Source: an uncultured Sphingomonas sp.
GTDB taxonomy: Bacteria; Pseudomonadota; Alphaproteobacteria; Sphingomonadales; Sphingomonadaceae
Assembly (NCBI GenBank): GCA_913777325.1
Contig: CAJYSA010000118.1
Location: 1 to 61,960 of the forward strand
DNA: 61,960 nt
Reading direction: 5' to 3'
Shown here: in pieces, positions 3,850 to 8,403 of the stretch
Layout: every line of letters starts with the position of its first letter
Position numbering within the stretch: the stretch's first letter is position 1
Made by a program: the position numbers and the translations under genes
The notes under the pieces: model-generated
The model's input: the letters and a program-made list of their open reading frames with translations, nothing else
Database searches by the model: none
Told to the model about the DNA's origin: nothing

Positions 3850-4857
3850 TCATGCTTCGCCGGAACGCAGCGCTTCCCCGGCGCGCGCCTCGGTGATCCT
3901 GTTTCCGGTGACACCGACGTTGTCGCCGATCACGTTGCTCGCGGCCGCCGCCGCGGCGTCGGCGGGCGGATCGTTGCGCCCGTCGTCGGCGACCTGCTGC
4001 TTGTCCTGCCCCGCGCGCCGCGCGTACATCTTGGCCGGATCGCGCATGTCGAACCGCAGCCAGCCCTTGCCGAGCAGCGGATCGGCGCCGTCCATCTGCG
4101 CGAACTTGATCAGCGCCTGCGGCGCGCCATCCTGCGGCAGCGCCAGCGTCTCGCCGGTCGTGAAGGTCAGATCCCAGCGCCGGTTGCCCACCCAGGTCGC
4201 GGCGCGGATGCGCGGGCGCAACGCGGGCGCGGCGGCGAGGAGCGCCTGATAGCCCGGCTCCTGCGCGTTCGCGCCCGGCCCGATCACCAGCGGCAGGTCG
4301 GGCATCCGCCCCGCCTCGACCGGCGCCAGCAGCCGCCCGGTCGCATCGATCAGCGTCAATTGCCCGTGATCCTGCCAGATCGCCGCCGGATCGCGCTCGG
4401 TAATGTGGATCACCAGCCGATCGGGCAGCCGGCGCGCGACATAGGCGTCGGCGATCCAGCCATAAGCGAGCAGCCGCTCGCGCACCCGCTCCAGGTCGAC
4501 GCGCAGCATCGCGCGAGTCGACTGGTCCTCCAGCGCGATCGCATAGACCGTCTCGCGGTCCATCCGCTTCAGGCCCGTGATGTCGACCTGCTCGACGCGC
4601 AGCCCGGCGCGCCCCGCCGCATCGGCCACGCCGTTGCCGATCGCCTGCGGCACGCCCAGCAGGTTGGCGACGAACAACGTCGCCACGCCGACGCCGCCCA
4701 GCACCGTCCACGTCACCGCCTTGCGCAGCGTGTCCTCGTCGATCGGCAGCTTCGCGAGCAGCCGGTCGCCCAGCGACGCCTTCTGCACGCGCCGGCGGTT
4801 GGGCGCGGGCCGGCGAGACGGTGGCGCGGCGGACCCGCGCTTGATCGTGCGGCTCAT
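3850..4857 (-). CDS. ftsQ: Cell division protein FtsQ
   Basis: This is a bitopic divisome protein linking early and late division proteins. The 335-residue product has a basic cytoplasmic N-terminus, one membrane segment near residues 47-70 (VTWTVLGGVGVATLFVANLLG), and a POTRA-like domain beginning near residue 88 (LRVEQVDITGLKRM). The FtsQ beta domain follows (TERDPAAIWQDHGQLTLIDA). The last 55 or so residues form a polar, Ala-rich tail that is longer than usual. The ATG overlaps the stop of the murB-ddl gene (ATGA at 4857-4854), indicating translational coupling. The ftsA gene follows after 11 bases. Confidence 0.93.
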   Translation of the reverse strand: MSRTIKRGSAAPPSRRPAPNRRRVQKASLGDRLLAKLPIDEDTLRKAVTWTVLGGVGVATLFVANLLGVPQAIGNGVADAAGRAGLRVEQVDITGLKRMDRETVYAIALEDQSTRAMLRVDLERVRERLLAYGWIADAYVARRLPDRLVIHITERDPAAIWQDHGQLTLIDATGRLLAPVEAGRMPDLPLVIGPGANAQEPGYQALLAAAPALRPRIRAATWVGNRRWDLTFTTGETLALPQDGAPQALIKFAQMDGADPLLGKGWLRFDMRDPAKMYARRAGQDKQQVADDGRNDPPADAAAAAASNVIGDNVGVTGNRITEARAGEALRSGEA

Positions 4858-6794
4858 GCGCGCCCCGCCTCCGCCATCGCCTCGTCGACGATCGCCTGCA
4901 CCAGTTGCGGATAGCTCATGCCGGTATGCCGCGCCTGTTCGGGGACGAGGCTCAGCGGGGTCATCCCCGGCTGGGTGTTCACCTCCAGCAGGAACAGACC
5001 ATCGACGCCGCGCTCGTCATCCCAGCGGAAGTCGGAGCGGCTCGTCCCCCGGCATCCCAGCACCCGGTGCGCCTGAAGCGCGAGCGCCATGCACGCCTGC
5101 GCCACGTCGTCGGGGATCTCCGCCGGGAAGATATGGTCTGTCATCCCGTCGGTATATTTGGCGTCGTAATCGTACCAGCCCGACTTGGGGCGCAACTCGG
5201 TCACACCCAGCGCCCGATCGCCCAGCACCGCCGTCGTCAGCTCCCGCCCGCGCACATAGGGCTCGGCCAGCAGTTCGTCGAACTCCTGCCACGGCCCGCG
5301 CGCGTCGCGCGCGATCGGGTTGCCGTAATTGCCCGCGTCGGTGACGATCGCGACGCCGACCGAGGACCCCTCGTTGACCGGCTTCAGCACATAAGGGCGC
5401 GGCAAGGGATCGGCATCGTGCACGTCGGCGGACTTCACGATCCGCCCGCCCGGCATCGGCACGCCCGCCGGCACCAGCACCTGCTTGGTCAGCACCTTGT
5501 CGATCGCGATCACCGACGTCGCCAGCCCCGAATGGGTGTAGCGCACGCCCATCAGGTCCATCAGCCCCTGCACGCTGCCGTCCTCGCCCGGCGTGCCGTG
5601 CAGCGCGTTGAAGACCAGATCGGGCGCGGCCGCCGCCAGCTTCGCCGCGACATCACGCCCCATGTCGATCCGCGTGACGCGGTGGCCCAGCGACTCGAGC
5701 GCATCGGCCACGCCGTTGCCGGAGGAGAGCGAGACCTCCCGCTCCGCCGACCAGCCACCCATCAGGACGGCGATGTGCAACCCTGCTCCCTCTCCCCCCC
5801 GGGGAGAGGGCCGGGGTGAGGGGTCGGTGTCTCGCAGAGAGTCCAGGCTCGGTGAGACATCGGCCCCTCCCCCAACCCCCTTCCCATCGGGGCGGGGGCT
5901 TTCGTCACGCACCAAACCCACGCGCTGAATCTCCCATTCCAGTTCCACGCCGCTCGCGGCCTTCACCCGCGCGCGCACGTCCTCGCCCAGCGCCTCGATA
6001 TCGGCGCTCGTCGCCGCGCCCAGATTGAGCAGGAAGTTGGTGTGCTTCTCGCTCACCTGCGCGTCGCCGCGCCGCAGCCCCCGGCACCCGGCGGCATCGA
6101 CCAGCGCCCACGCCTTGTGCCCGTCGGGGTTCTTGAACGTTGATCCACCGGTCTTTGACCGCAGCGGCTGCGACGCCTCGCGCGCCGCCGCGATCCGGTC
6201 CATCTCGGCCTGAATGTCGGCGGACAGGCCCGGCTCGCCCCGGAAGGTCGCCGATATCACCACCGCCCCCTCGGGCAGCGCCGAGTGACGATAGGTATAC
6301 CCCAATTCGTCGACCGCCAGCGTCCGCCGCGCGCCCGAGCGCAACACGACCTCGGCCTCGATCAGCACGTCGGCGGTCTCGCGGCCATAGGCGCCACCGT
6401 TCATCCGCACGAACCCGCCGACCGTGCCGGGGATCGAACGGAGGAACTCCAGCCCCGCCACGCCGGCATCACGCGCAGTGGAGGAGACGAGGATGCCGCT
6501 CGCCCCGCCGCCACAGCGCAACGTCACGTCGTCCAGCGCGGTCACGCCCGCGAACGGCTTGCCCAGCCGAATCACGACCCCCGGCACCCCGCCATCGCGG
6601 ACGATCAGGTTCGACCCCAGCCCCAGCGCCATCACCGGCACCGCCGGGTCCAGCGCGCGCAGGAAGTCGCTCAGATCGTCGGCATCCGCCGGCTCGAACA
6701 GCCACTGCGCCGCCCCGCCCGCCTTGAACCAGACAAGCGGCGCCAGCGGAGCCTGTTGGGTCAGCCGACCACGGACGGCGGGCATGTCGGTCAC
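4854..6794 (-). CDS. murB-ddl: Fused UDP-N-acetylenolpyruvoylglucosamine reductase / D-alanine-D-alanine ligase
   Basis: One uninterrupted frame encodes two lipid II precursor enzymes. The N-terminal part (about residues 1-290) is MurB, which reduces UDP-GlcNAc-enolpyruvate with FAD: LGLGSNLIVRDGG, IPGTVGGFVRMNGGAYGRE and GSTFKNPDG are present. The C-terminal part (about 336-643) is Ddl, the ATP-grasp D-Ala-D-Ala ligase: MGGWSAEREVSL, ALHGTPGEDG, KPVNEGSSVG and LLEVNTQPGMT. The 45-residue linker is Pro/Gly/Arg-rich and is encoded by a palindromic GC-rich repeat, so a repeat insertion probably removed the murB stop. The start is GTG 6794 (GTGA overlap with the upstream small gene) or ATG 6785. 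A TTG at 5780 with GAGGGAG upstream could still start a separate 308-residue Ddl. The families are certain; whether the protein is fused in the cell is not. Confidence 0.9.
   Translation of the reverse strand: MTDMPAVRGRLTQQAPLAPLVWFKAGGAAQWLFEPADADDLSDFLRALDPAVPVMALGLGSNLIVRDGGVPGVVIRLGKPFAGVTALDDVTLRCGGGASGILVSSTARDAGVAGLEFLRSIPGTVGGFVRMNGGAYGRETADVLIEAEVVLRSGARRTLAVDELGYTYRHSALPEGAVVISATFRGEPGLSADIQAEMDRIAAAREASQPLRSKTGGSTFKNPDGHKAWALVDAAGCRGLRRGDAQVSEKHTNFLLNLGAATSADIEALGEDVRARVKAASGVELEWEIQRVGLVRDESPRPDGKGVGGGADVSPSLDSLRDTDPSPRPSPRGGEGAGLHIAVLMGGWSAEREVSLSSGNGVADALESLGHRVTRIDMGRDVAAKLAAAAPDLVFNALHGTPGEDGSVQGLMDLMGVRYTHSGLATSVIAIDKVLTKQVLVPAGVPMPGGRIVKSADVHDADPLPRPYVLKPVNEGSSVGVAIVTDAGNYGNPIARDARGPWQEFDELLAEPYVRGRELTTAVLGDRALGVTELRPKSGWYDYDAKYTDGMTDHIFPAEIPDDVAQACMALALQAHRVLGCRGTSRSDFRWDDERGVDGLFLLEVNTQPGMTPLSLVPEQARHTGMSYPQLVQAIVDEAMAEAGRA
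5778..5780 (-). promoter_or_regulatory. Possible internal TTG start for separate Ddl
   Basis: The minus strand reads a purine-rich GAGGGAGCAGGG and then TTG CAC ATC GCC, exactly where a free-standing Ddl would begin (xHIAVLMGGWSAERE). The Shine-Dalgarno-like stretch is itself part of the inserted repeat. Initiation here would give a normal-length Ddl of 308 residues alongside the fusion. This is an inference from position and base composition. Confidence 0.3.
5782..5905. repeat. Palindromic GC-rich intergenic-type repeat inside the murB-ddl frame
   Basis: The stretch contains a perfect inverted repeat, CCCTCTCCCC (5788-5797) and GGGGAGAGGG (5801-5810), with a three-base loop. The sequence GCCGGGGTGAGGGG follows, then at 5862-5900 a second C-rich/G-rich imperfect hairpin. 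The translated minus-strand peptide includes PSPRPSPRGGEG, a type of sequence known from dispersed extragenic palindromes in many proteobacteria. It lies exactly between the last conserved MurB residues (WEIQRVG) and the first Ddl residues. I see no second full copy in this window. It resembles a REP-type element inserted at a gene junction. Confidence 0.7.
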
Positions 6795-6988
6795 GGGGCG
6801 ATGCGCGACAATTGCGCCCACGCCTGCCACGCGGCCCAGTTCGCCTCGGCGGCGCGACGCGACGCTTCCTGTGCCGCGACCAGCGCCGCACCCGCGTCAT
6901 GTGCGTGACGTCCAGCCTCCAGCGCGGTCCGCTGCGTATCTAGCAGTTGCTTCTGCCAGTTGATCGCGGCGTCGAACAAATTGGTCAT
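6791..6988 (-). CDS. Small helical protein of unknown function in the dcw cluster
   Basis: This 65-residue gene sits between murC and murB. Its ATG (6988) overlaps the murC stop as ATGA and its TGA overlaps the murB GTG as GTGA, so it is embedded in the coupled operon. The product is rich in Ala, Gln and Trp (four Trp), with no signal peptide or membrane segment. It should form one or two amphipathic helices; the end reads [16 protein letters not shown]. The composition recalls short phasin-like helices, but I do not recognise the family. Overlap coupling on both sides argues that it is real and expressed in step with murC and murB. Confidence 0.7.
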
Positions 6989-8403
6989 GCGCGGTCTCCG
7001 ATCGCGGCGGCGAGGCCGGCGGCCCATTTGGTGATGTCGCCCGCGCCCAGGCAGATCACCTGATCGCCCGCGCGCAACTCGTCCGCCAGCACATCGGCCA
7101 GCGCGGCGGCATCCGCCACCACCGCCGCCTGCCGGTGTCCGCGATCCTGCAATCCCGCCACCAGCGCCTCGGCGTCGACGCCGGGCACCGGCGCCTCGCC
7201 CGCCGCATAAACGGGGGTGACATAGACCTGATCGGCGTCGTTGAAGGCGCCGCGGAAGTCCTCCATCAGATTGCCGAGCCGCGAGTAACGGTGCGGCTGC
7301 ACCACCGCGATCACGCGACCCTGCGCCGATTCGCGCGCGGCGGCCAGCACCGCGCGGATCTCGACCGGATGGTGGCCATAATCGTCGATGATCGTGGCGA
7401 CCGCCCCCCCATCGAAGGTTATCTCACCCACCTTGGTGAAGCGCCGCTTGACGCCGCTGAACCGCTCGAACCCCTTGCTGATCGTCGCATCGTCGATGCC
7501 GAGCTCCAGCGCAACGCCGATCGCGGCCAGCGCGTTCTGGACGTTGTGCCGCCCCGGCATCGGCAGGTCGATGCCCTCGATCGACCGCACCCCGCCGTCC
7601 CGCGCGCGGATCAGCGCCTCGAACCGGTTGCCGCCCGGATACGGGGTCACGTTCACCCCGCGCACGTCCGCCGACGCCGCGAAGCCATAGGTCACGATGC
7701 GGCGATCGCGGACACGCGGGATCAGCGCCTGCACCTCCGGGTGGTCGAGGCACAGCAGCGCCGCGCCATAGAAGGGCACGTTCTCGACGAACTCGACATA
7801 CGCGTCCTTGGCGCGCTCGAAGCTGCCGTAATGGTCGAGATGCTCGGGATCGATATTGGTGACGACCGCGATCGTGCCGTCCAGCCGCAGGAAGCTGCCG
7901 TCGCTCTCGTCGGCCTCCACCACCATCCAGTCGCTCGCGCCCAGTCGCGCGTTCGAGCCATAGCTGTTGATGATCCCGCCGTTGATGACGGTCGGGTCGA
8001 CCCCGCCAGCATCCAGCAGCGCGGCGACCATCGACGTCGTCGTCGTCTTGCCATGCGTGCCCGCGACCGCGACGGTCGATTTCAGCCGCATCAGCTCGGC
8101 GAGCATCTCGGCGCGCCGCACCACGGGGATGCGGTTGCGCAGCGCCGCCTCGACCTCGGGGTTGCCGCGCTTCACCGCCGTCGAGGTGACGACCACCGCG
8201 ACGCCATCGACATTGGCGGCGTCATGGCCGATCGTCACCGCGATGCCGCGCGTGCGCAGCCCCTCGATCACATAGCCCTCGGCGACGTCCGACCCCTGCA
8301 CCTTGTAGCCCAGGTTGTGCATCACCTCGGCGATGCCGGACATGCCGATCCCGCCGATCCCGACGAAGTGGATCGTGCCGATATCGGTAGCGACACCTTT
8401 CAT
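6985..8403 (-). CDS. murC: UDP-N-acetylmuramate--L-alanine ligase
   Basis: This cytoplasmic ATP-dependent ligase adds the first amino acid, L-Ala, to UDP-MurNAc. The start at ATG 8403 ([20 protein letters not shown]) overlaps the murG stop as ATGA and gives 472 residues, the family's usual length. The N-terminal Rossmann motif [10 protein letters not shown] binds UDP. The ATP loop [10 protein letters not shown] lies near residue 118, with the Mur ligase motif EADESDGSF near 175 and [10 protein letters not shown] after it. The C-terminal domain carries [10 protein letters not shown]. It is followed by the 65-residue gene and then murB, the next enzyme group. Confidence 0.97.

Follow-up and report, generated by a model that had tools for sequence, protein, structure and literature searches.

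Several fusions between enzymes of the Mur pathway are known. The pairs named are MurE/F, MurB/C, MurG/C, MurC/Ddl, and MraY/MurG, and MurB/Ddl is not among them in the sections considered here (PMC6420597). A MurB/C protein is described and the MurC/Ddl protein of Chlamydia is cited in the corresponding sections of PMC4803751; the bifunctional enzymes named in these parts of the two articles are MurC-Ddl of Chlamydia trachomatis, MurB/C of Verrucomicrobium spinosum, and MurE-MurF of Bordetella pertussis (PMC4803751, PMC6420597). Here we describe a reading frame of an uncultured Sphingomonas sp. in which murB and ddl are joined through a palindromic repeat. The window, i.e., the whole stretch of DNA that was analysed, comprises 61,960 nucleotides and lies on contig C118 (CAJYSA010000118.1) of a draft assembly of 123 contigs (GCA_913777325.1). 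It belongs to Sphingomonas by kinship, the closest named loci being those of S. endophytica NS334, Sphingomonas sp. 8AM, and S. phyllosphaerae FA2.

Palindromes within coding sequences have been described as well. The Rickettsia palindromic elements (RPEs) are palindromes of 105–146 bp which lie in frame within genes for conserved proteins as well as in intergenic regions; they occur in 19 Rickettsia reading frames, and one guanylate kinase is active despite the insert (PMC2229807, sections considered here). Intragenic repetitive extragenic palindromic (REP) sequences of the GTAG/CGTC type are short hairpins, often head-to-head dimers, some of which lie inside genes of known function in several species, according to the parts of PMC3733652 considered; by word search 'Sphingomonas' is absent from the main text of that article.

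Like the known Mur fusions, the locus studied here combines two cytoplasmic peptidoglycan enzymes in one predicted polypeptide. It differs from those listed in the pair concerned (MurB and Ddl), in having a dispersed palindrome as linker, and in the existence of close unfused relatives. With the RPEs, as described in the sections cited above, the element shares a similar size and a position in frame inside conserved genes as well as between genes. Unlike the RPEs it is very GC-rich, occurs in a free-living sphingomonad, and sits at an operon junction where it gives rise to tails and to a fusion; the two are likened by description, not by sequence. Short hairpins in inverted pairs, some of them intragenic, are likewise a feature of the GTAG/CGTC REPs in the parts of the source considered. 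In contrast to systems of REPs and their associated tyrosine transposases (RAYTs), no Y1_Tnp gene was found, as the source genome gave no match to PF01797, whereas the control was positive in 5 of 14 genomes including E. coli. In the open-licence literature we found no report of a MurB-Ddl fusion and no fitting report of coding palindromes in sphingomonads. The initial annotation regarded a repeat-mediated fusion of this kind as undescribed; for MurB-Ddl this agrees with that literature, whereas Mur fusions of other pairs, and palindromes lying in frame, have been described before.

The fused frame and its palindromic linker

A single open frame with complete MurB and Ddl had been proposed from the sequence of the window (Table 1). 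Over this interval the plus-strand frame is interrupted by stops, and the fused genes are read from the minus strand. The stop codon of their frame occupies 4854–4856 and the frame is free of stops from 6830, GTG at 6794 being the likely start. MurB reached 365.7 bits with NF010480 against a curated cut-off of 259 (residues 14–305 of the protein P0001) and Ddl 379.3 bits with NF002378 against 243 (residues 351–653; both NCBIfam), and Pfam recovered the domains of both enzymes as well. In the Protein Data Bank (PDB) the fused protein matched a MurB first and then Ddl enzymes. The AlphaFold2 model consists of two confident domains with residues 310–347 disordered (mean predicted local distance difference test score, pLDDT, 85.0; predicted template modelling score 0.51). 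A search of the source genome, which is 99.91% complete, at an E value of 0.001 revealed no murB or ddl other than in the fused open reading frame (ORF), and the remaining six matches lay at repeat copies. The fused MurB-Ddl frame is real, as first observed.

The linker consists of the palindrome, as the initial annotation had stated, although it is one codon shorter than the 45 codons given there; the perfect 10-bp arms of the terminal hairpin are present. It also derives from a repeat and is not a chance palindrome: in those stretches of the source genome that were read, the 115-bp unit occurs in 26 diverged copies. These were found with a profile made from the linker palindrome in 24 sequences of this genome, namely the window and 23 loci, of which L157 is without a copy, and each matched on both strands since the unit is symmetrical. 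Twenty-two copies measure 90–128 bp and four are shorter. The common plan comprises two short hairpins head to head, each of the form CCCTCTCCCC-nnn-GGGGAGAGGG with a TTGGGTGAGGGG tail; most of the 26 aligned copies contain two facing hairpins, some only one. In 19 of the 20 copies of at least 100 bp two or more of the six frames are free of stops, and given these many stop-free frames an open frame across the repeat alone is weak evidence. Seven matches to Rfam families in the region 4500–7000, all under the gathering scores and mostly of microRNA types, were taken as chance matches to GC-rich hairpins.

The flanking genes overlap the fused gene on both sides. A small ORF of 65 codons (6791–6988, minus strand) sits between murC and murB and its stop overlaps the GTG of murB; ftsQ is situated at the other end.

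Table 1. Coordinates of the fused gene, its parts, and the neighbouring ftsQ in the window (residue numbers refer to P0001; SD, Shine–Dalgarno)
Feature	Position	Strand	Remarks
Fused murB-ddl ORF	4854..6794	minus	646 codons and stop; frame open up to 6830
MurB part, residues 13–306	5913..6794	minus	NF010480 and TIGR00179 above cut-off; best PDB match 9dtk
Linker, 44 codons, residues 307–350	5781..5912	minus	residues 310–347 predicted disordered, pLDDT under 50
Ddl part, residues 351–658 and stop	4854..5780	minus	NF002378 and TIGR01205 above cut-off; PDB matches are Ddl
Palindromic element, 115 bp	5787..5901		pair of REP-like hairpins, inverted relative to each other; 26 copies read in the genome, this one included
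Terminal hairpin	5788..5810		perfect 10-bp arms 5788–5797 and 5801–5810, 3-nt loop
SD-like GAGGGAG	5786..5792	minus	first five bases paired in hairpin stem (local RNA fold)
TTG, putative internal Ddl start	5778..5780	minus	relatives have ATGA near here
ftsQ	3850..4857	minus	its ATG overlaps the stop of the fused gene (ATGA)

The murB-ddl junction in related genomes

Many relatives have murB and ddl directly adjacent or overlapping in ATGA or GTGA. The loci L048 and L054 contain no repeat, and their murB ends with ASDHGEAA or ASDHGGAA at an ATGA. In L020, L021, L049, and L050 the repeat is present at the same point and is read as a MurB tail of 42, 63, 43, and 43 residues, respectively; these four loci keep the ATGA in which the murB stop overlaps the ddl start. 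The window reads GAGCAGGG where the repeat-bearing relatives read GAGCATGAC, and the ATGA is lost. The alignment with related sphingomonads that had been suggested thus yielded the expected junctions with a murB stop and without the repeat, and in addition a repeat-bearing unfused state. It does not support the earlier view that the insertion had removed the murB stop: the repeat alone did not do so, because the repeat-bearing relatives retain the ATGA. Judged from this comparison, the repeat would have supplied the linker, and a separate small change would have produced the fusion.

We propose the following course of events. A dispersed palindrome of about 115 bp, made up of two REP-like hairpins head to head, would have landed in an ancestral junction at which the murB stop overlapped the ATG of ddl. 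Since several frames of the element are free of stops, the only effect on murB would have been an extension by at least 42 residues, which can still be seen in relatives. A small deletion or replacement in the lineage of the window would then have destroyed the ATGA, bringing both genes into one frame; the most likely product in the cell is a single bifunctional MurB-Ddl whose linker is disordered. We consider this account as a whole probable; what we infer in it is the succession of events and the existence and activity of the protein. The pentapeptide precursor depends on both MurB (formation of UDP-MurNAc) and Ddl (D-Ala-D-Ala), whose steps are not successive. The disordered linker of the model should let the predicted MurB and Ddl both act, and no channelling would be expected.

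Some further observations concern these junctions. A mosaic origin of the window locus, whose Ddl is 98% and MurB 92% alike to L048, was considered and rejected; the identity in 150-nt bins of DNA ranged from 78 to 96%, with one bin at 99%, and recombination is not needed because there is no sharp switch. Two records labelled S. endophytica, L048 (NS334, without the repeat) and L049 (DSM 101535, with the repeat), are situated on different branches of the MurB+Ddl tree. Unfused MurB proteins with C-terminal tails of 31–47 residues, seemingly encoded by repeats, are present in further Sphingomonas loci (L026–L035, L174). In L112 the murB frame passes the ddl start in another frame and stops 486 nt after the core, which is either a long overlap or a sequence error.

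Stop-free fused matches were obtained in seven of 295 genomes of the genus (G000, G037, G086, G226, G042, G009, G067); as each fusion had to exceed a strict threshold as a single stop-free match, those with odd linkers could be missed. The junctions were also read directly at 113 of 119 loci (six unread) from 112 genomes of a 121-genome sample, with G007, G035, and G062 left out. Six of these 113 loci are fused, 61 have spacers of at most 60 nt, and 46 have longer ones; in 13 of the unfused loci MurB has a tail of at least 20 residues. The six fused genomes from the direct reading are all among the seven, and it revealed no others. No further stop-free fusion was detected among 397 genomes of the family at the strict E value of 1e-200, a set which includes the source genome and some of the genus. 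Among 385 genomes of the class one more was found at E 1e-120 (also strict), in G978, which belongs to another family. In this distant alphaproteobacterium (L335) a single frame covers MurB and Ddl; a linker is absent, and an ATG lies in frame where the two meet.

Apart from the window, fused loci were found in a second, separate group of six genomes around S. citri: L010 (= L039), L011, L013, L040 (= L121), L041 (= L176), and L042 (= L178), with spacers of 33, 144, or 150 nt. In L013, L040, L041, and L042 there is no in-frame ATG, GTG, or TTG from the terminal GTG of murB to the first conserved residues of Ddl; in L042 a GTG is present two codons into Ddl, while L010 has a TTG in the gap and L011 a GTG 60 nt upstream. 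It is the missing start codons, not the linker lengths, that carry the argument for fusion in this group. The linker of L013 appears to be another dispersed repeat because between 23 and 80 matches to it were obtained per genome in all six (counting both strands and scoring no more than 40 candidates in any one genome), no separate search being made with the 33-nt spacers of L041 and L042. In total, at least five linkers of this group resemble such a dispersed repeat. A count of perfect hairpins (stem of at least 9) was discarded as a criterion, since with 1 of 6 fused, 17 of 46 long unfused, and 0 of 61 short junctions it was too strict for the second group.

In the MurB+Ddl tree the window stands beside the unfused NS334 (95/91), and the S. 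citri group beside the unfused L022 (88/83). Fusion requires at least two changes on this tree, none of 200 bootstrap trees (0%) groups all fused rows, and a single clade of them has a p value of 0.023 in the approximately unbiased (AU) test. The S. citri group is fused independently of the window.

Alternative explanations

Several points weigh against the course of events proposed above, and some of them lend support to alternatives. Gain or loss of the repeat within the clade needs two changes on the tree, so that the order of events is not fixed; the repeat may have been gained once and then lost, or gained twice. Moreover, the repeat is not needed for a MurB-Ddl fusion, as G978, fused without a linker, indicates. 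For the second group the argument from linker lengths and reading frame is weak, few indel events being involved, and most of its linkers have several stop-free frames.

The first alternative is that ribosomes restart at the TTG within the open frame, giving either the long product and much free Ddl or mainly free Ddl. Only five bases separate GAGGGAG (5792–5786) from the TTG (5780–5778), and relatives start ddl at nearly the same place. The pairing of GAGGGAG with the anti-SD sequence, –7.7 kcal/mol, also counts against our account, as it is much like that of the relatives' sites (–6.6 to –10.0 kcal/mol in the 20 nt before five real ddl starts). A value of –10.0 kcal/mol for the 20 nt before the TTG of the window was discarded; there the pairing falls in a G run about 12 nt upstream and not in GAGGGAG. 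The repeat had been thought to have supplied this SD-like site. It is indeed present and belongs to the end of the repeat, and the repeat-bearing L020, L021, L049, and L050 share it, but similar sequences (GGAGAGG and GGAGGGG) precede ddl in L048 and L054, which lack the repeat. In the local RNA fold, however, the GAGGG core is sequestered in the 10-bp stem with an unpaired probability near 0, the window has no stop from which termination–reinitiation could proceed, and in the other fused clade four of six genomes are without a comparable upstream start and are fused nevertheless. Extensive restart at the TTG is in our view doubtful. Because the SD-like bases are paired in the stem and a stop for termination–reinitiation is missing, we expect mainly the long MurB-Ddl product, perhaps with a little separate Ddl from the TTG.

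Second, the fusion in the window could be a sequencing or assembly error at the GC-rich hairpin, the true gene having the ATGA of the relatives. One contig of the draft assembly ends in an adapter-like remnant, and the junction lies at the foot of a strong hairpin. Just before it, the hairpin loop gives rise to a run of seven Gs against four in most repeat-bearing relatives, at equal total length, and fusion in this lineage rests on one genome. Yet the junction differs from that of the relatives by lost and changed bases, not merely in the length of a run, and the hairpin segment is as long as in L020, L049, and L050. An error at this place could not account for the second fused clade of six genomes either, and we regard it as quite unlikely.

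Finally, a single ancestral MurB-Ddl fusion before both groups, later split in the relatives of the window, is highly improbable: both groups do fall within one well supported clade of 16 rows (99/95), but several re-inventions of stop and start would be needed where the tree needs only two changes, a single clade of all fused rows is disfavoured by the AU test, L022 as the nearest row to the second group is unfused, and the linker sequences of the two groups differ.

The repeat in other core enzymes

Seven of the 26 repeat copies, including that of MurB-Ddl, are in frame within open genes, one of them at a contig edge. The six other hosts are isoleucyl-tRNA synthetase (IleRS), valyl-tRNA synthetase (ValRS), RNase R, the E2 subunit of a 2-oxoacid dehydrogenase, a biotin carboxylase/PCC-alpha-like protein, and the beta subunit of glycyl-tRNA synthetase (GlyRS-beta), encoded in the loci L007, L006, L144, L146, L155, and L156 of the source genome. 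The gene context of the copies was assessed with a home-made codon score, and Pfam or NCBIfam subsequently served to check the genic ones. RNase R fails to reach the cut-off of TIGR02063 and exceeds that of TIGR00358, while the E2 and biotin carboxylase proteins pass the Pfam cut-offs and no NCBIfam cut-off. The copy in GlyRS-beta is cut by the contig end, and the contig begins with an adapter-like string (L156:1-22), which we take to be of Illumina type and probably a remnant of the assembly. The other 19 copies are intergenic or, in L153, at the start of a gene; this last copy, near a glycine cleavage gene, was not counted as genic, since its overlap with the frame probably reflects no more than an extension of the latter in the upstream direction.

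Sites in relatives were compared for ValRS, IleRS, and RNase R; of 26 loci fetched, 25, 16, and 13 (12 genomes) were read, respectively. The ValRS site comprises 12–13 residues in 20 of the 25 relatives, i.e., it is empty, but 51 in the source genome and 45–50 in five relatives. By eye, the inserts of four of these (L281, L282, L283, L294) are GC-rich hairpins; that of L290 is a quite different inverted repeat with 25-base arms matching at 24 of 25 positions. With inserts in these five loci the ValRS loop is a possible insertion hot spot. The IleRS loop comprises 69 residues in the source genome, 15–29 in eight and 41–50 in the other eight of the 16 relatives, and several of the long loops hold repeat-like peptides. 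At the RNase R site the length varies from 16 to 105 residues. Inspected by eye, the flanks of the three sites are too diverged for any target site duplication to show. From these comparisons the repeat family appears to behave as a protein-coding palindromic element.

On balance we slightly favour a wider reading for the sphingomonads, according to which several unrelated palindrome families repeatedly enter the same loops (ValRS, IleRS, RNase R) and the murB-ddl junction in frame. Across the genus they would correspond to the Rickettsia elements and would make new linkers and tails, and at least twice a bifunctional MurB-Ddl. This suggests a route from a noncoding repeat to protein, in which an overlapping stop and start takes up a stop-poor palindrome, the upstream protein gains a tail, and the pair is then one small deletion away from fusion. 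As species with the empty site, with the tail, and with the fusion coexist, the steps of this gene fusion are directly testable. For annotators it is a warning that core proteins of sphingomonads may contain genuine 'REP' peptides.

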